In this document: one piece after another, positions 8,442-20,502 of the stretch
Layout: every line of letters starts with the position of its first letter
Numbering within the stretch: the stretch's first letter is position 1
Assembly: GCF_004353525.1 (NCBI RefSeq)
Contig: NZ_CP085524.1
Location: 62,001 to 126,000, forward strand
DNA length: 64,000 nucleotides
Source of the DNA: Zhaonella formicivorans
GTDB lineage: Bacteria; Bacillota; DUOV01; Zhaonellaceae
Reading direction: 5' to 3'
Translations under genes and position numbers: made by a program
Notes under the pieces: generated by a model
What the model saw: the letters and a program-made list of their open reading frames with translations, nothing else
Database searches by the model: none
What the model was told of the DNA's origin: nothing

Positions 8442-9749
8442 ATGTCTGATGAGTTATATATAATCGGGCACCAAAACCCCGATACCGACTCCATTGTTGC
8501 AGCGATAGCTTACGCTTATTTTAAAACTGAGTTTCAGGATAAGAGGGCTATCCCAAGCAGATGTGGCAAGATCAATGGGGAGACGGCTTTTGTTTTGGAT
8601 TATTTTAAACAGGAAGAACCGATTTTATTGGAGGATGTAAAGCCAAGGGCCAGGGATATGTTAAAAGCAGACCCGGTTGCGACTTTGGCCGATGTGAGTT
8701 TAAGAGAGGCAGGAAATCAAATGAGGCAGCTGGGGATTAAGACTTTGGCTGTAGTTGATGACTCCGATCGCCTTTTAGGGCTATTGACGGTAGGCGACTT
8801 GGCCAGACTTTTGCTGGAAGCTTGGGATATAGGCAGCTTTCCCATGGATGAGCCGGTAGGTAAGTTCATGCGGACGGAAAATTTGGTGGTTTTTCAGGAC
8901 GATGATTTGGTGGAAGAGATAAAGCCAACCATGTTGGAAACGAGGTTTCGGAACTACCCGGTAGTAGATGCCAACCAGCGGTACCTAGGCATGGTTTCCC
9001 GTTATAACCTTCTGGCTTTACGGGGGAAAAAACTGGTGCTGGTTGATCACAATGAAAAAAGTCAAGCTGTGCACGGGGTAGAACAGGCTGAAGTCCTGGA
9101 GATTATTGACCACCACCGGATAGCTGATGTGGAAACGCCGGAGCCAATTATGATGCGCAATGAGCCGGTAGGGAGTACGGCGACTATCATAAGTAAAATA
9201 TACAATGAACATGAGATAGTTCCGCCGCCTAAAATCGCCGGACTGCTTTGTGCAGCAATTTTATCCGACACCCTGATTTTTAAATCGCCTACCACGACTT
9301 TTGCTGACAAAAAATACGCAGCGCAGATGGCAGCCGTTTCGGGGCTGGACATGATTGATTTCGGAAAGGCGATGTTTAGGGCCGGCTCAACGGTAGCAGG
9401 GCGCACCGGCCAGGATATTCTCTTTGAAGATTTCAAGGAATTCCACCTAGGCAGCAGTGTGGTCGGAATTGGACAAATAGAAGTAGTTGATGCCGATTTA
9501 ATTAAGGGGAAGATAGCGGAGCTCTTGGCAGCTTTGCAGGAAGCAGAGCGGGAAAAAGGGTATGATTTGGTAATTTTAATGCTGACGGATTTAATGCGGG
9601 ATGGAACTGAATTGCTTTTCACAGGCAGGCAGAGCAGAGTTGTGGAAAAAGCATTTAACGCCGGACCGGGGCAGAACAGCATCTTTCTACCCGGGGTTAT
9701 GTCCCGAAAAAAACAGGTAGTACCGCCGCTTAGCAGGTATCTGCAGTGA
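8442..9749 (+). CDS. ppaC: Manganese-dependent (family II) inorganic pyrophosphatase with CBS domains
   Basis: DHH-family pyrophosphatase hydrolysing pyrophosphate, with an inserted nucleotide-binding CBS pair. IIGHQNPDTDSIVAAIAY at the N-terminus and IIDHHRIAD are metal ligands; residues about 70-190 are two CBS motifs; the C-terminal substrate motif is SRKKQVVPPL. At 435 residues it lacks the extra DRTGG domain of longer members. CBS forms are regulated by AMP, ADP or diadenosine polyphosphates. The ATG at 8442 follows AGGTGA; a GTG at 8433 is less likely. It sits between pcrA and ligA, which are usually adjacent; ligase releases nicotinamide nucleotide rather than pyrophosphate, so the link is not biochemical. 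Confidence 0.92.
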   Translation: MSDELYIIGHQNPDTDSIVAAIAYAYFKTEFQDKRAIPSRCGKINGETAFVLDYFKQEEPILLEDVKPRARDMLKADPVATLADVSLREAGNQMRQLGIKTLAVVDDSDRLLGLLTVGDLARLLLEAWDIGSFPMDEPVGKFMRTENLVVFQDDDLVEEIKPTMLETRFRNYPVVDANQRYLGMVSRYNLLALRGKKLVLVDHNEKSQAVHGVEQAEVLEIIDHHRIADVETPEPIMMRNEPVGSTATIISKIYNEHEIVPPPKIAGLLCAAILSDTLIFKSPTTTFADKKYAAQMAAVSGLDMIDFGKAMFRAGSTVAGRTGQDILFEDFKEFHLGSSVVGIGQIEVVDADLIKGKIAELLAALQEAEREKGYDLVILMLTDLMRDGTELLFTGRQSRVVEKAFNAGPGQNSIFLPGVMSRKKQVVPPLSRYLQ

Positions 9750-9751
9750 AT

Positions 9752-9953
9752 TAGCCATCAGCCAGCAGCTATCAGCTCTTAGCTATCAGCTGCAAGTATC
9801 AGCTTTATTAGAAGCATTGGCTAGCATTAAAGTTTAAAGAGCGCGAAGCATTAGTTCATACAACTTGATTAACCATTTACTTTTTGTGAATGAAAGTTTG
9901 TTTAATGGTTATTAATAAAAGCTGACAGCTGGCAGCTGACGGCTGATGGCTAA
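9752..9953. repeat. Pair of inverted AGCTGAxG repeat arrays
   Basis: The left arm (9755-9804) holds about five copies of the reverse-complement word (CAGCTATCAGC type); the right arm (9920-9953) holds four copies in the forward sense (AGCTGACAGCTGGCAGCTGA). Together they could pair into a stem around a spacer of about 115 bases, which also holds a small inverted match, AACCATT with AATGGTT. This is the whole content of the 236-base gap before ligA. No promoter is evident. Confidence 0.75.
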
Positions 9954-9982
9954 CAAGCATACTGCATGCATGGAGGAGCTAA

Positions 9983-12020
<2,038 letters not shown>

Positions 12021-12053
12021 CATATTCGATACATAGGTTTTTCGACAGACCTT

Positions 12054-12366
12054 CATGCTGCTGTCGCAGCGCCATCAGAAAAATGAAAAATAGTAACCCA
12101 TTGTGTCGCAGCTGCTCTTTTTGACGGGCCGTAGAGCGCTCTGTGAAGAGTATAATTGGGGACATTCCCCGAACAAATATAAATCTTGCATAAGGGTGTG
12201 TCCCCTGACCTGTCCGGTCGAGCAGCATGGACTCACGAAGCGCTGGAGCGGCAGGACAGAGCGAAAGCCGCGTGCCGTTGGAAGTCCGGCACCGAGCAGT
12301 TGGTGCTCTTGATTCAGACAGCGGGAGCGACAGGACATAAACGTTATAGCTACTTTCGAGATAGCT
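12054..12366 (-). repeat. 315-bp repeat element, copy A
   Basis: This stretch is the reverse complement, with scattered changes, of 54451-54770. Shared landmarks are the end AGCTATCTCGAAA, the phrase AACGTTTATGTCC, a GC-rich variable middle, two nearby hairpins (GGGGACATTCCCC at 12160-12172 and GGGTGTGTCCCC at 12195-12206) and CACAATGGGTTA. Short frames cross both copies but diverge, so I do not call them genes. The GGGGACA hairpins resemble REP-type sequences mobilised by RAYT transposases; none is encoded here. Confidence 0.8.
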
Positions 12367-12467
12367 TAGTTAGCGAAAATTAAAAGCACCAGAATCAGGA
12401 ATATGGCAAATGCCATATGAGGACCGAAGAAACCATCTTTAAAACCTCCACCAAATCCTGCTCCCAT
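12366..12467 (-). CDS. YjcZ-family tiny membrane peptide
   Basis: A 33-codon gene on the minus strand from ATG at 12465-12467, with AAGGAGG 9 bases upstream. The peptide starts MGAGFGGGFKDGF and ends in one hydrophobic segment (MAFAIFLILVLLIFAN). This glycine-rich head plus single membrane helix is the pattern of the YjcZ/tiny-TM family common in spore formers, where several members occur in spores. Its stop touches the end of repeat copy A. It is convergent with ligA and upstream of nothing obvious on its own strand. The function of the family is not established. Confidence 0.75.
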   Translation of the reverse strand: MGAGFGGGFKDGFFGPHMAFAIFLILVLLIFAN

Positions 12468-12581
12468 TAAAGAATACCTCCTTACTTTAGTAATTTGTTT
12501 CTTGCCTAATATAGCTTATGAAAAATTAAACAGAATGTGATGGGTGAAAAAAATATAAACTCCAGGGTAGCTGGAGTTAGT

Positions 12582-14270
12582 TTAAGCTAAATTTTTTTCT
12601 AGCTTTCCTTTCGTAAACAAACGAATAAAGTGTTCCACCAAATGAGGGTCAAATTGAGTACCCGAACACCGTCTCAATTCCTCCAGGGCTGCCTCTCTTT
12701 CCATAGCAGTTTTATACGGCCTGTTGGTGGTCATGGCATCAAAGCTGTCTGCAATCCGCAAGATTCTTGCTTCAAGGGGGATGGCATCGCCTTTTAGTCC
12801 TGACGGGTAACCTGTGCCGTCAAAATTCTCATGGTGGTGTAGAATAAGTGGGGAGATATCCCGAAAGGCCCTGATAGGTTTGACTATTTCCGCTCCCCAA
12901 ACCGGATGCTGGTTAAAAATATGACGTTCTTCAGCAGTCAGTACAGTTGTTTTATTCAGTATATCCCGGGATATCTCGATTTTGCCAATGTCATGCAAAA
13001 ATGCTCCGTATGCGATACATTTGACTTGATTTTCGGTCAGACCTATTTCTTTGGCCAGTTCCTGGGCGTAGAGAGCGACCCGTTCGGAATGGCCATAGGT
13101 ATACCTGTCTTTGGCGTTGATGATGCTCACTAACGTACGCACGGAGTTGATTAAATCCTGCTCGTTTTTTCTTACCGAATTGCCGAGCTCATTAAAAACG
13201 GTAAAATATAATTCCACTTTATTTTTCGCGCTGTTTTTAGCTTTGTATAAGGCTTCATCTGCGCTGCGAATCAGCTCTTTTTTATTATCGGCATGTTCCG
13301 GATAACCGGCGATCCCGCAGGAGATAGTAAGCCGTCCTTGAGGCAGCAACTCGGCACCGTAAAAATCATGGGCGGAAATGTTGGAGCGTAAAGTATCAGC
13401 AACAACTACAGCTTGCTTGGCAGTTAAACCGGGAAGAATTATGGCGAACTCTTCTCCTCCATACCTGGCGGCAATGCCGATTTTGCCGATTTCGGCTTTT
13501 AATATTTTCCCAATCTCTTTGAGTACTTCATCACCTTGCTGATGTCCGTATGTGTCATTGTAAAACTTAAAATAATCAATATCCATCATGATCAGAGCCA
13601 GGTTAGTGTTGTTGACGCACGCTTGCTCCAGCTCAAAACTTAAAACTTCTTGGAAATGGCGGTGATTTGCCAGTCCGGTCAGATCGTCGTAATTAGCCAG
13701 GTTCTCAAGGTACTGCTGGGTTTCCAGCTCAATATTCCGCAGGTTGCCTATAAGCCAGTTGATCAAGAAGATTATACCAATCAACAAAATATCTGAATCA
13801 AAAGCATCGTATGTATTACTAGCTTTGAAATTATTTACGACATTTATGAATAGAAGTGCAAATGAGCACAAAGCAGTAACTGCGGTTCTATATATTTTAT
13901 CGTAGTTTAAAGCTGCTAATATTACCGGCATAAAAAAAAGCATTTTAATGTCGATATATTTTGAACCAAATAAGTTTAAAATAATAATTATTAAAATGGT
14001 GCAACAAACAAAAATATAATTTGCCAAGGTTGGCTTTTTTAAGGACAGGATTTGACCTTTGTATTTATATAAAACCAAATAAAGCAAGAGTGAAAAAGCA
14101 AAACTTATTAAAAAGGCACCTCTTCCAAAATATAAGTTATTGGGATCTATAACTTTAAGTCTATTGATAATCATGAAGACTGCAGCTAAATATATTAAGT
14201 AAGTTGTAATATGGGTTATTATTAAGTACTCCTCAATTTTATTAGAAGTTTTTTTATACCAATCTCTCAT
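12582..14270 (-). CDS. Membrane GGDEF / HD-GYP cyclic-di-GMP signalling protein
   Basis: 562 residues: about six hydrophobic segments in residues 15-180 act as a membrane sensor; a GGDEF domain follows (DDLTGL at 194-199, signature GGEEF at 271-275), then an HD-GYP phosphodiesterase domain (HD at 426-427, HHHENFDGTGYP at 478-489). Both catalytic signatures look intact, so it could make and degrade cyclic-di-GMP. AGAGGA lies upstream of the ATG. It directly follows agrD on the same strand, separated by a GC-rich hairpin, and may be read with the agr genes. The coding DNA for the membrane part is notably AT-rich. Confidence 0.9.
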   Translation of the reverse strand: MRDWYKKTSNKIEEYLIITHITTYLIYLAAVFMIINRLKVIDPNNLYFGRGAFLISFAFSLLLYLVLYKYKGQILSLKKPTLANYIFVCCTILIIIILNLFGSKYIDIKMLFFMPVILAALNYDKIYRTAVTALCSFALLFINVVNNFKASNTYDAFDSDILLIGIIFLINWLIGNLRNIELETQQYLENLANYDDLTGLANHRHFQEVLSFELEQACVNNTNLALIMMDIDYFKFYNDTYGHQQGDEVLKEIGKILKAEIGKIGIAARYGGEEFAIILPGLTAKQAVVVADTLRSNISAHDFYGAELLPQGRLTISCGIAGYPEHADNKKELIRSADEALYKAKNSAKNKVELYFTVFNELGNSVRKNEQDLINSVRTLVSIINAKDRYTYGHSERVALYAQELAKEIGLTENQVKCIAYGAFLHDIGKIEISRDILNKTTVLTAEERHIFNQHPVWGAEIVKPIRAFRDISPLILHHHENFDGTGYPSGLKGDAIPLEARILRIADSFDAMTTNRPYKTAMEREAALEELRRCSGTQFDPHLVEHFIRLFTKGKLEKNLA

Positions 14271-14294
14271 AACTGTACATCCTCTGAATTGGCA

Positions 14295-14316
14295 AAGGGC
14301 GGCAAAAACCGCCCTT
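14295..14316 (-). other. GC hairpin between agrD and the GGDEF/HD-GYP gene
   Basis: AAGGGCGG (14295-14302) and CCGCCCTT (14309-14316) pair around CAAAAA. No T-run follows in the direction of transcription, so it may be a weak terminator, attenuator or processing site controlling read-through from agrBD into the signalling gene. Confidence 0.55.
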
Positions 14317-14323
14317 AATGAGA

Positions 14324-14455
14324 TTATTTTTGCAATGTTTTAGGTAGTTTAGGTTGATACCAAGTAACTTGACAAGCTGAAGCAGCACTTATTGTGGCGA
14401 ACAAGGTAAGAATGCTTACAATACCTGTTAAGAAAGCTAATTTAATTTTGGTCAT
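14324..14455 (-). CDS. agrD: AgrD-like cyclic autoinducer peptide precursor
   Basis: A 43-residue precursor from ATG at 14453-14455, with GAAAGGAGGG placed inside the end of agrB. It has the AgrD layout: basic amphipathic N-terminal leader (MTKIKLAFLTGIVSILTLF), then ATISAASAC with the key Cys28, then QVTWY and the conserved tail QPKLPKTLQK. In AgrD proteins the cysteine forms a thiolactone with the C-terminus of the mature peptide and the Pro-containing tail is removed by AgrB. The predicted ring is therefore C-Q-V-T-W or C-Q-V-T-W-Y. It overlaps agrB by 14 bases. Confidence 0.88.
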   Translation of the reverse strand: MTKIKLAFLTGIVSILTLFATISAASACQVTWYQPKLPKTLQK

Positions 14456-15080
14456 ATTTTAACCCTCCTTTCAAAACCCATGATAGGGCATAATCAACTT
14501 TATCTATAAGTATAAAGCCCAAAGGAGTTATTGAGATACTGTGGCAAATTATTCCCAGACATGAAGCAATGACAACAGGAAAAGCAAATGCGATTTTTGC
14601 AAAGTGCATTAAATATAAAGCCATAAAGGTTATAAACAATGTAACAAAGGAAAGCATTCTTAACTTTTTACAGTACTTTTCTGACATGGGTTTTTCAGGT
14701 GTTTGTGCTGGAGACCAAAAATAATGAATAGTAAAAGCAATTATTGAAGTTAATATCAAAATGATAGTTTGGTTTGCTACTAGGAATTCATTGAAAATAT
14801 CGATTAATTTTGCAAGAGAAGTAAACGTGATACTACTAAACAACGCACAGTTTAACATAGTTTTGCAATGGGCACCACCCGCAGTAACTTTAACAATTGC
14901 AAATGAAGCAAGAACAACAAGCATTATTTTAAATACTCCGAGCAGCCAACTGATAAGAAAAGTCAGAAGCAAGCTAAAAGCTGTAGAAAGCACTGATTCC
15001 AGACCAAATTTAATGATTTCGAACTGTTCCTCATTTAAGTTAGTATTTTTAACAAGATATAAGCAAAATCGTTCAATCAC
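14442..15080 (-). CDS. agrB: AgrB-like peptide-processing membrane protease
   Basis: 212-residue multi-pass membrane protein. The catalytic pair of AgrB is present as H71 and C78 in VTAGGAHCKTMLNC, with the same spacing of seven as in the staphylococcal enzyme. AgrB cleaves the AgrD tail and forms the thiolactone. The start is GTG at 15078-15080, overlapping the stop of the upstream membrane gene, and the end overlaps agrD, so the three genes are coupled. The DNA is AT-rich compared with the his and gat genes. Confidence 0.9.
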   Translation of the reverse strand: MIERFCLYLVKNTNLNEEQFEIIKFGLESVLSTAFSLLLTFLISWLLGVFKIMLVVLASFAIVKVTAGGAHCKTMLNCALFSSITFTSLAKLIDIFNEFLVANQTIILILTSIIAFTIHYFWSPAQTPEKPMSEKYCKKLRMLSFVTLFITFMALYLMHFAKIAFAFPVVIASCLGIICHSISITPLGFILIDKVDYALSWVLKGGLKYDQN

Positions 15081-15543
15081 AGCTGTCCTTCCTTACTGTT
15101 TTTTGTTTATTGAAATAATTGAGAATAAAAGCTAAAGAAAGTAAGATTAGAACTTGAGGAAGGCCTAGTAATGTCCATAGCCATTGGTTCTTATATAATT
15201 CTTGAAAAGAAATGTTTAAGAAATTGAGTAATGCACCAAGTAGAAATTCACTGGCTGCAACAGTTATCATATTGGTTAAAGCGGCCATAAAAGCTAAACT
15301 TAATTTACATTTTGTAAACGAAACTAGAAGGACTACCAAAATAAAAATTAAAATAATAGTATGTACACCGTACGAGATAGGTAACAATCTAATTGAAAAC
15401 GCAGAAATGCCGTATATAACACCAATTCTTAAAATTAAATTCCAAATTAAAGGCAATTTAATGATTGCAAAGCAAAAAGCTGTGGAAGCTATAGTTTCAG
15501 GTAACCCCTGAAATAAGAAAGTAATCCATGGCATTTTAAGCAA
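15073..15543 (-). CDS. Small multi-pass membrane protein upstream of agrB, possible sensor-domain remnant or partner
   Basis: About 156 residues with four to five hydrophobic segments and no enzymatic motif. MPWITFLFQGLPETIASTAF followed by further helices resembles the membrane input region of AgrC-type sensor kinases, but no kinase domain follows: the frame ends in KKDSCD-like polar residues and runs straight into agrB. Start choice is open: TTG at 15543 has GGGAGAG 6 bases upstream; ATG at 15534 and TTG at 15570 are alternatives. The IS30 element lies about 80 bases upstream. It could be a full-length accessory protein or a truncated kinase. Confidence 0.6.
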   Translation of the reverse strand: MLKMPWITFLFQGLPETIASTAFCFAIIKLPLIWNLILRIGVIYGISAFSIRLLPISYGVHTIILIFILVVLLVSFTKCKLSLAFMAALTNMITVAASEFLLGALLNFLNISFQELYKNQWLWTLLGLPQVLILLSLAFILNYFNKQKTVRKDSCD

Positions 15544-15630
15544 AATTATCTCTCCCTCTCGTCCTTCCAATGCTGCTAAAGCATTATTCGACGAATTTCC
15601 AAGAATTCCTTTATTTACTAGAGAATTTTA

Positions 15631-15645
15631 AGAGAATTTTAAGAT
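15631..15645 (+). repeat. 15-bp direct repeat left of the IS30 element
   Basis: AGAGAATTTTAAGAT, identical to 17009-17023 on the other side of the insertion sequence. A partial extra copy lies at 15620-15632. It may be an unusually long target duplication or a chance local repeat. Confidence 0.65.
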
Positions 15646-15726
15646 GGTTCATTGTAAAATTAAATGCAACAGGTAAAATACAGTAAAAAAATAAACAACC
15701 ATAGTGAGAAATCATGTATGATTTAG

Positions 15727-16933
<1,207 letters not shown>

Positions 16934-17008
16934 GATGGATATTATTCTTTAAAACCTAAAATCATGATGATTCTCACTAGAGGTGTTGCATTTAATATTG
17001 CAATTTAG

Positions 17009-17023
17009 AGAGAATTTTAAGAT
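17009..17023 (+). repeat. 15-bp direct repeat right of the IS30 element
   Basis: AGAGAATTTTAAGAT, identical to 15631-15645. Confidence 0.65.
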
Positions 17024-17045
17024 AAAAACGAAAAAATCGTTGAAG

Positions 17046-17074
17046 TTGCAGAGGTTGATTTGTTTTGTTATAAT
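17046..17074 (+). promoter_or_regulatory. Promoter of the gatCAB operon
   Basis: TTGCAG (17046-17051), a 17-base spacer and a perfect TATAAT (17069-17074), 80 bases before gatC and just outside the IS30 element. The insertion therefore left this promoter intact. Confidence 0.72.
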
Positions 17075-17153
17075 TGGTAAAGATGTTTTTTGTCAAAAAA
17101 TAGTAAAGTAGATACCATGCCTTAATGAACTTATCCTCAGGAAGGTGAAGGAA

Positions 17154-17438
17154 TTGAATATAACCAAGAAAGATGTTGAGCATGTGGCCTTGCTGGCCCG
17201 CCTGGAACTTACCGAAGCTGAAAAAGAGAATTATACCAAAGAACTAAATGCAATCCTCGAATTTATGGACAAACTCAATGCATTGGATACAACCGGGGTC
17301 CAGCCAACAGCCCATGTTTTGAATATCCACAATGTGTTCAGGGAAGACGTGGCTTCAAATAATTTGGACCGGGAGGCAGTACTGCAAAATGCGCCGGATC
17401 AAAAAGACGGCCAGTTCCGCGTTCCAAGAATAGTATAA
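17154..17438 (+). CDS. gatC: Aspartyl/glutamyl-tRNA amidotransferase subunit C
   Basis: Small structural subunit of the GatCAB complex that converts Glu-tRNA(Gln) and Asp-tRNA(Asn) to the amidated forms. KKDVEHVALLARLELTEAE is the family N-terminus and FRVPRIV the usual C-terminal end. TTG at 17154 (94 residues) fits the AGGAAGG at 17139-17145; the GTG at 17145 would overlap that site. A repeat-bearing gap of 149 bases separates it from gatA. Confidence 0.92.
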   Translation: MNITKKDVEHVALLARLELTEAEKENYTKELNAILEFMDKLNALDTTGVQPTAHVLNIHNVFREDVASNNLDREAVLQNAPDQKDGQFRVPRIV

Positions 17439-17539
17439 ATTCTTGTCCTCCGTCGCCAGTCCTTGGTCACAAGTCAAGAGTGCACTGCTGGGATGGGGGT
17501 GCTTCGCACTAAGATTACTTAAAAAATACAGCCTAAAGC

Positions 17540-17572
17540 CATTGGCTAGTGGCTGACAGCTAACGGCTGGTC
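17540..17572 (+). repeat. Degenerate AGCTGAxG-type repeat array
   Basis: Between gatC and gatA: near-copies GGCTAGTGG, CTGACAGC, TAACGGCTGG, just before the gatA ribosome binding site. Same family as the other arrays. Confidence 0.65.
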
Positions 17573-17587
17573 TAGGGGGTAACGGTT

Positions 17588-19054
17588 TTGGAACTGTATG
17601 AATTGACAGCCCATGAATTACGGGAAAAGTTAATAAAAAAAGAAATCAGCTCGGTTGAGCTTACTAATGTTTTTTACAGCAGAATTGAAGCGGTGGAAAA
17701 CCACATCAAGTCCTACGTGACTTTTACCAAAGAGCGGGCGCTTAAGAAAGCGCGGCAGATTGATGCAATGCTGGCCAGGGGTGAACAAACCCACCCGCTG
17801 GCAGGTATCCCGATGGCCCTTAAGGATAATCTTTGTACCCAGGGAGTGAGGACCACCTGTTCTTCGAAAATGCTGGAAAATTACATACCGCCTTACGATG
17901 CAACAGTAGTGGAAAGACTAGATGCTGCCGGAGCGGTAACGCTTGGCAAGTTAAACATGGATGAATTTGCTATGGGTTCATCAACCGAAAATTCCCGTTT
18001 CTTCCCCACTTGTAACCCATGGGATTTAGAGCGGGTGCCGGGCGGTTCCAGCGGCGGGCCCTCAGCGGCGGTAGCAGCAGGCGAAGCCGTTTATTCTCTT
18101 GGTTCAGATACAGGAGGCTCTATTCGCCAACCTGCTTCCTTATGTGGTGTGGTGGGCTTAAAGCCTACATATGGTTTGGTTTCGCGCTATGGTTTGGTCG
18201 CTTTTGCGTCTTCCTTGGACCAAATCGGCCCATTTACCAGGGATGTCACCGATTGTGCTCTGGTGCTGCAGGCAATAGCCGGGCATGACCCCATGGATTC
18301 AACTTCCGCAGATTTACCAGTGCCAAACTACCAGGAAGCTTTAATACCCGATGTAAAGGGCCTAAAAATAGGGGTGCCAAAAGAGTATTTTGCTGCCGGT
18401 TTGGACCCGGAAGTGGAACAACTGGTTAAACAAGCCATTAAGAAATACGAGGAGTTGGGGGCGATTATTGAAGAAACCTCCATGCCTCACACCGAATATG
18501 CCTTGCCGGCTTATTATGTTATTGCCCCTGCCGAGTGCAGTTCAAATCTGGCCAGGTATGACGGCGTTCGTTATGGTTACCGGGACAAGGATGCCGAAGA
18601 TATTGTCAGCATGTTCATGAAAACCCGGGATGAAGGGTTCGGTCCGGAAGTTAAAAGGAGGATTATGCTGGGCACCTATGCTTTAAGTTCCGGATATTAT
18701 GATGCTTATTACCTTAAAGCGCTGAAGGTCAGAACCTTGATCAAACAAGATTTTGATAGGGCTTTTACTAAATATGATGTATTATTAACGCCTACCACCA
18801 CTTCAGTCGCATTCAAGTTCGGGGAAAAAACAGATGATCCTTTGGCCATGTATCAGAACGACATTTGCACTGTGACCATTAATCTAGCCGGGGTGCCAGC
18901 TATTTCCATTCCATGCGGTTTTAGCCGGGGTTTGCCGGTAGGATTACAACTAATTGCCAAACCGTTCGGGGAAACCACTTTATTCAGGGCGGCCTATGCT
19001 TTCGAAAGTGTAACAGATTATCACCGGCAAAGACCGCAAGTGGGGGTGAAGTAA
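17588..19054 (+). CDS. gatA: Aspartyl/glutamyl-tRNA amidotransferase subunit A
   Basis: Amidase-signature subunit that releases ammonia from glutamine. The Ser-cisSer-Lys triad is visible: K79 in IPMALKDN, S154 in PGGSSGG and S178 in [12 protein letters not shown]. 488 residues is normal. The start is TTG at 17588 after an AGGGGG site. Its stop overlaps the gatB ATG, so both are coupled. Confidence 0.95.
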
Positions 19055-20502
19055 TGAGCAGGGAATATGAAGCAGTAATTGGGTTGGAAGTACATGCAGA
19101 GTTAAAAACCAATTCTAAAATATTTTGCTCCTGCACTACGGAATTCGGCGGTGAACCCAATACTCATGTCTGCCCGGTTTGCCTCGGGTTGCCAGGAGTT
19201 TTGCCTGTTTTAAACAAAAAGGTAGTTGAATATGCCATGAAGGCAGGCCTGGCTTTAAACTGTAAAATTGCCTCATTTAGCAAGTTTGACCGGAAAAATT
19301 ATTATTATCCCGATTTACCCAAGAACTTTCAGACTTCCCAATATGATCTGCCTATTGCGCAAAATGGTTACCTGGACATCGAAGTGGACGGACAAGTTAA
19401 GCGCATTGGCATTACCAGGGTGCACATGGAGGAAGATGCAGGTAAACTGGTCCACTCCGGTGAAACTATTACTACTTCTTCCGGTTCGCTGGTAGACTAT
19501 AACAGGGCCGGTGTACCTTTAATCGAGATCGTATCGGAACCGGATTTGAGATCCCCGCAAGAAGCAAGGGCTTATATGGAGCTGTTGAAATCCATCCTGG
19601 AATATACCGAGGTTTCGGACTGTAAAATGGAAGAAGGTTCGCTGCGCTGCGACGCTAACGTTTCCGTAAGACCTAAAGGCACCTCGGAATTTGGTACCAA
19701 AACCGAAATCAAGAACATGAACTCTTTTAAAGCGCTGCAGAGGGCATTGGAATATGAGATTGAGCGGCAAATTCAGGTACTGGAAGAGGGAGGTAAGGTT
19801 ATCCAGGAAACGCGCTCCTGGGATGAGGCAAAAGGGGTAACTGTTTCCATGCGCAGCAAAGAAGAAGCTCATGATTACCGCTATTTTCCTGAGCCTGACC
19901 TGGTGCCCATTGTTATTGACGAAGAGTGGGTGGAAAGCATCAGAAAGAGCTTACCAGAGCTGCCTCAGGCCAGGAAAAAGCGCCTGATGGAAGATTTCGG
20001 ACTTCCTGCATATGACGCTGAAGTTCTAACCGGCTCCAAGGCGTTAGCTGAATTTTTTGATGCGGTGATGCAGCATTACAAAGATCCTAAAGTGGTTTCC
20101 AACTGGTTGATGGGAGAACTGTTGAGGTTGCTCAATGCCAGCAATAAAAGCATAGCGGAATCGCCGATTAAGCCACAGGGTTTGGCTGAATTATTAAACC
20201 TGCTGGACAAGGGGACTATCAGCGGTAAAATAGCCAAACAGGTTTTTGAAGAAATGTTTAACTCGGGTGAGTCGGCTGAAGCCATTGTAAAAGCTAAGGG
20301 CTTGGTGCAAATCAGTGATGAAGGTGCCATCGCCGCAGTAGTCGAGCAGGTCATTGCCAATAACCCCAAATCAGTGGAGGATTTTAAAAACGGCAAGGAA
20401 CAAGCTATCGGTTACCTGGTGGGACAGGTGATGAAAGAAACCAAAGGCAAAGCTAACCCAGCCCTGGTCAATAAGCTGTTGAGGGAGCAACTGAGCAAAT
20501 AG
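19054..20502 (+). CDS. gatB: Aspartyl/glutamyl-tRNA amidotransferase subunit B
   Basis: Kinase and tRNA-binding subunit of Gat[20 protein letters not shown] begins the catalytic cradle; the zinc cysteines lie in FCSCTTEF and HVCPVCLG (residues about 25-45); the C-terminal helical and YqeY-like tail ends [16 protein letters not shown]. 482 residues, full length. The ATG overlaps the gatA TAA. Confidence 0.95.

Follow-up and report, generated by a model that had tools for sequence, protein, structure and literature searches.

How is a cyclic-peptide signal read at an agr locus that has neither AgrC nor AgrA, and what does it control? Agr signalling is usually taught as a kinase-regulator circuit. 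In the window, by which we mean the whole 64,000-nucleotide stretch of the Zhaonella formicivorans genome that was analysed, no kinase or LytTR gene adjoins the AgrB and AgrD genes, so that the AgrC and AgrA of a canonical AgrBDCA locus are both missing. An earlier note had proposed that peptide sensing may be tied here to cyclic di-GMP (c-di-GMP) without AgrC and AgrA, the signal being read by the membrane domain of a GGDEF/HD-GYP enzyme encoded downstream or else by a receptor elsewhere. The tie itself was strongly supported by gene order, by an independent genome collection and by the lack of any other AgrC-type receptor in the genome; the membrane domain of the enzyme, which has no detectable relation to AgrC, is less likely to be the receptor than a separate membrane protein, and looks more like the partner that receives the signal.

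Genes of the operon and the predicted peptide

The four genes are encoded on the minus strand of the window in the order membrane (TM) protein, AgrB, AgrD and membrane GGDEF/HD-GYP enzyme, the N-terminal membrane domain of which is termed GN. The features of the region are as follows.

15570..15073, minus strand: ORF of a five-helix membrane (TM) protein, 165 aa, no family match above cut-off (Pfam, NCBIfam)
15080..14442, minus strand: AgrB (PF04647, E 2.5e-32, 112.2 bits versus a cut-off of 23)
14455..14324, minus strand: AgrD precursor (TIGR04223, 43.9 bits versus a cut-off of 19)
14270..12582, minus strand: GN-GGDEF-HD-GYP enzyme, 562 aa (PF00990, 1.1e-45; PF13487, 1.7e-42)
12558..12578, minus strand: terminator-like hairpin at the operon end (consensus scan, 8-pair stem, T-rich tail)
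15646..17009, plus strand: IS30 element with an NF033563 transposase, 75 bp upstream of the TM ORF

The TM ORF and AgrB overlap by 8 bp and AgrB and AgrD by 14 bp, and a gap of 53 bp separates AgrD from the enzyme gene; judged from the sequence, TM protein, AgrB, AgrD and enzyme are one tightly packed operon. All members of the same-strand set described previously (a membrane-only protein, overlapping AgrB and AgrD, and a GGDEF/HD-GYP protein) were recovered by coordinates and family matches. The start of the TM protein is more likely a TTG at 15543 than the ORF start at 15570, because a ribosome site precedes the TTG and homologues start there. The sole terminator-like site found was 3' of the enzyme gene, in a region where the number of such sites was not above chance expectation (consensus scan). 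A search of window positions 9000-20000 against Rfam gave no match. Between the operon and ligA, a possible gene of 33 aa (12366..12467, minus strand) with a good ribosome site, MGAGFGGGFKDGFFGPHMAFAIFLILVLLIFAN, resembles YjcZ-type small sporulation proteins, yet it had no family match.

The limits of the IS30 element were set by comparison with its other genomic copies (three full and almost identical, one partial), which are 99.9-100% identical and have the same start and end. It sits between gatC and the agr operon and is flanked on either side by the repeat GAGAATTTTAAGA. The element is not a member of the agr system and may affect the operon promoter; at 75 bp from the first ORF, it makes expression of the window copy uncertain. 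The AT-rich DNA remarked on in the earlier note is real in this copy (GC of 32.6% in AgrB versus 45% in the flanks). AT-richness as a general mark of AgrB-GN-GGDEF loci was ruled out, since the difference in GC between AgrB and flanks over 50 such loci averaged only -0.8 points (sd 5.7), which makes the window copy atypical. The window AgrB formed a long branch on the AgrB tree, with a position that was not fixed, and horizontal transfer of the operon, as read from the atypical GC, is possible.

AgrB is complete, as claimed, with catalytic His71 and Cys78 both invariant among 16 relatives (alignment A4), and Cys28 and the QPKLP tail of AgrD were correctly assigned. The predicted AgrD ring is a 5-residue thiolactone, Cys-Gln-Val-Thr-Trp (CQVTW), followed by the tail YQPKLPKTLQK; we assume the five-residue ring size by comparison with the C. 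perfringens precursor, and take the tail to be similar to the clostridial type. In 47 of 50 precursors of such loci, a conserved YQPExPxxLRK-type tail was preceded by four variable residues and, before these, a Cys (45) or Ser (2). The ring was hypervariable across precursors, which fits the expectation for a private signal. The two AgrD precursors with Ser for the ring Cys (L084 and L159) would yield a lactone, not a thiolactone.

The TM protein and the GN-GGDEF-HD-GYP enzyme

Profiles of TM proteins from GGDEF loci, of TM proteins preceding two-helix GHKL kinases and of residues 1-230 of fused AgrC-type kinases were compared by hhalign. TM proteins of GGDEF loci matched those of kinase loci (99.8%) and the N-termini of fused AgrC-type kinases (99.6%), and the latter two also matched each other (99.9%). 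AgrB is encoded next to the fused kinases, and several of these loci also have a LytTR regulator. In their sensor region, two of the fused kinases (L051 and L085) gave matches to the NCBI AgrC model, and another (L076) had no match to this model at the threshold used. On the strength of this profile homology, the window TM protein is an AgrC-type sensor half without a kinase, in keeping with its earlier likening to a kinase input domain. The homology was visible by profiles only, direct BLASTP of the window TM protein against those of sister genomes giving no useful signal. The TM family shares the conserved motif R-x-LPI-x-FG-x-HT, and the structure model of the protein has five helices (mean pLDDT of 83); a PDB fold search with this model returned no similar solved structure. 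The TM protein is, by its homology, the likeliest receptor of the peptide.

GN comprises residues 1-186 of the window enzyme (family A1), without a family match above cut-off, and the N-terminal ~185 residues form one family across the cassette enzymes. When tested for DUF4118 (DUF4118/PilS-like membrane domains), the window GN scored 15.3 bits versus a cut-off of 28.4, and weak DUF4118 matches were present in 7 of 16 GN members. A hidden relationship of GN to AgrC was ruled out (hhalign probability ≤2.4%). From its place beside the sensor half, GN looks like the partner receiving the signal.

The motifs of the window enzyme are intact (RYGGEEF in GGDEF, HDIGK and HHENFDGTGYP in HD-GYP), and it retains the invariant N238 and D247, which we take to be the positions used for guanine by canonical c-di-GMP cyclases such as PleD. 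Among 54 enzymes compared, the HD residues were intact in all and the GYP motif in 53 (one gap), and the GGDEF motif was altered in 20; hydrolysis by HD-GYP is thus probably the conserved output. In a model of low confidence, the last membrane helix continues into the GGDEF domain.

We then considered receptors elsewhere in the genome, which is closed (3.31 Mb). It encodes one AgrB, one member of the TM family (search E up to 0.1), two weak matches to HATPase_c_5, both in large kinases, and one LytTR protein. The latter was ruled out as AgrA because its partner is a 5TMR-LYT histidine kinase, which makes the pair a LytST system. The earlier statement that no histidine kinase or LytTR regulator is present therefore applies to the neighbourhood of the locus, and no intact agrC/agrA pair was found in the rest of the genome either. 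A sister genome (G002) has AgrB, AgrD, a TM protein and a split GHKL kinase, and no LytTR protein. Genome G001, from a relative in the same family, has a GN-GGDEF-HD-GYP gene at the end of a contig and, without AgrB, a decayed remnant of a sensor half and kinase (L015, 3580..4225, minus strand).

Recurrence of the gene order and outputs attached to GN

AgrB was present in 165 of the 399 genomes of the phylum, and the order TM protein, AgrB, AgrD, GGDEF/HD-GYP occurred ~18 times in 60 AgrB neighbourhoods. A search of the same 399 genomes for GN gave matches in 107. Linkage was counted for 51 GN-GGDEF enzymes, each with over 1.6 kb of sequence available upstream: AgrB was found no more than 700 bp upstream in 48, AgrD beside 47 and the TM protein beside 46. 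Two of the three loci without AgrB keep AgrD and the TM protein, and the third, which scored low for GN, lacks all of these. Loci with the GN-GGDEF cassette were found in ~29 families, so that a GGDEF/HD-GYP gene next to agrBD is a recurrent feature of related genomes and not peculiar to the window. With only 7 GGDEF genes in the 3.31-Mb genome, chance adjacency to AgrBD amounts to ~0.2% for one locus (~3,200 genes assumed) and is negligible for the conserved pattern.

An independent test was made in a named genome collection, with the 80 top-ranking relatives of the enzyme. GN was present in 3 of these 80, and exactly those 3 had AgrB, compared with none of the other 77; all three have TM protein, AgrB and enzyme in the same order and belong to Bacillota-type anaerobes. 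The link between GN and AgrB was significant (Fisher's exact test, P = 0.0004) against the 23 others with GGDEF and HD-GYP in one frame.

In other agr loci, the position of the enzyme is occupied by a kinase joined to GN, of the PAS-HisKA type in L075 and of the GAF-HisKA-REC type in L089. Six GN-kinases are encoded directly downstream of a TM protein, in some loci without AgrBD, indicating that TM protein and GN travel as a pair. On the AgrB tree, strongly supported branches forced at least 5 changes of the GN-GGDEF label, and several GN-kinase loci were nested among GN-GGDEF loci. Together with the GN-kinases in agr and TM loci, these changes point to a unit with exchangeable outputs: the sensor half and GN appear, from their gene arrangements, to be a unit to which varied outputs attach. 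The TM protein also accompanies kinases without GN, and 14 GN-kinases were located away from agr genes, so that kinase-bearing GN is not exclusive to agr. Fusion of TM protein and GN in one gene, sought as direct proof of contact, was found in none of the GN loci surveyed. In two loci (L063 and L169), a second unit of sensor half and GN-histidine kinase follows directly downstream of the AgrBD-GGDEF unit; by this arrangement, the same peptide may act on a kinase and on a c-di-GMP enzyme alike.

We lean, by a little, towards a modular receptor class in which a free-standing AgrC sensor half drives a GHKL kinase, a GN-HisKA kinase or a GN-GGDEF-HD-GYP enzyme. If so, the last form would be cyclic-peptide quorum sensing that controls c-di-GMP directly, without phosphorylation.

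Proposed mechanism, alternatives and known systems

For the window locus, a reasonably probable reading is that of a complete peptide signalling unit, in which a split-AgrC receptor acts through GN on c-di-GMP turnover. As suggested by the protein families, AgrB would cut and cyclise AgrD into the predicted 5-residue thiolactone CQVTW, which would be exported and sensed at the membrane by the TM protein. The latter would, as the gene pairing suggests, contact the 6-helix GN domain in place of a GHKL kinase. Through the long helix that connects GN with the GGDEF domain, this would shift the balance of c-di-GMP synthesis versus hydrolysis, in a direction on which the model is tentative. The host genome has seven c-di-GMP-I riboswitches, which could be the readers of the enzyme's output. 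Among those examined in its own loci, some (L257, L261, L259 and L260) are located before pilC/pilin, a chemoreceptor and two HD-domain genes, so that altered c-di-GMP might be read out in pilus, chemoreceptor and HD-domain genes; others precede small genes.

This split-receptor reading draws on the presence of AgrB, AgrD and TM protein beside nearly every GN-GGDEF enzyme, on the restriction of AgrB to GN loci in the independent collection, on the homology of the TM protein to the sensor half of fused kinases, some of which match the NCBI AgrC model, on the TM/GN-kinase pairs and on the GN-kinase fusions that occupy the enzyme's position in other agr loci, on a genome without another AgrC-type receptor or AgrA, and on the intact HD residues and the riboswitches, one of them before pilC and pilin. 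Counted against it were the lack of AgrC homology in GN and of TM-GN fusions, the 14 GN-kinases away from agr genes, the IS30 element, which may have cut the promoter, and the sister genome G002, in which the same task is done by a kinase.

That GN, the part conserved in every cassette enzyme, binds the peptide directly, the TM protein being a mere accessory (e.g., in export or assembly), would account for the few GN-GGDEF loci without an intact TM protein nearby; we consider it unlikely, because the homology to the AgrC sensor belongs to the TM protein and not to GN, and because the occurrence of TM proteins with kinases lacking GN, and with GN-kinases in the absence of AgrB, is unexpected for an export or assembly factor. 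We think it about equally unlikely that an unlinked kinase reads the peptide, as is proposed for VirS in C. perfringens, with the GGDEF/HD-GYP gene as a cotranscribed neighbour or target. There are precedents for AgrBD pairs that have no AgrCA beside them, in the Agr-like system of C. perfringens (VirS/VirR) and Agr1 of C. difficile (PMC11641729), and loss of AgrA in C. difficile R20291 changes transcription of unlinked GGDEF/EAL genes (PMC3754575); the GN-specific linkage over ~29 families, the single TM/AgrC-type sensor of the genome and the assignment of its one LytTR system to LytST argue against such a route here. Very unlikely, in our estimation, is a relic, gained by transfer and switched off by IS30. 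The atypical GC, the recent IS30 copy, the TM protein with split kinase in G002 and the decayed pair in G001 would fit it, but none of the four reading frames or catalytic motifs is disrupted, and the kinase-less order is the rule for the GN-GGDEF family elsewhere, so that the window copy bears no sign of kinase loss.

If the peptide sets c-di-GMP directly, as in the split-receptor reading, the main density signal of Gram-positive bacteria and the main second messenger of lifestyle would be joined in one operon, the receptor used by some AgrBD pairs without AgrCA would be revealed, and a short synthetic peptide would become a tool for setting cellular c-di-GMP. The ~29 families with this pattern make several hosts open to testing. 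In the open journal literature searched, judged mostly by titles and abstracts, no paper was found that connects AgrBD with GGDEF/HD-GYP within a single locus.

The window locus shares AgrB and AgrD with the staphylococcal-type agr system (AgrBDCA), together with a sensor that is related by homology to the N-terminal portion of AgrC. It lacks the LytTR regulator AgrA and the kinase portion of AgrC, for which a membrane GGDEF/HD-GYP enzyme stands in. Among quorum signals that target c-di-GMP enzymes, DSF works through RpfC and RpfG, an HD-GYP protein, and BDSF through RpfR. Control of a c-di-GMP enzyme by a density signal would be shared with the window locus under the proposed mechanism, but DSF and BDSF are fatty acids of Gram-negative bacteria with unrelated receptors, whereas the predicted signal of the window is a ribosomal cyclic peptide. 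The Agr-like system of C. perfringens and Agr1 of C. difficile resemble the window locus in having AgrBD without adjacent AgrCA (PMC11641729); they are thought to act via unlinked histidine kinases, whereas the window operon itself encodes a c-di-GMP enzyme along with the sensor half of an AgrC. The agr system of C. difficile likewise influences c-di-GMP enzymes, but there loss of AgrA changes the transcription of unlinked genes (PMC3754575), whereas the enzyme of the window is encoded in the operon itself.
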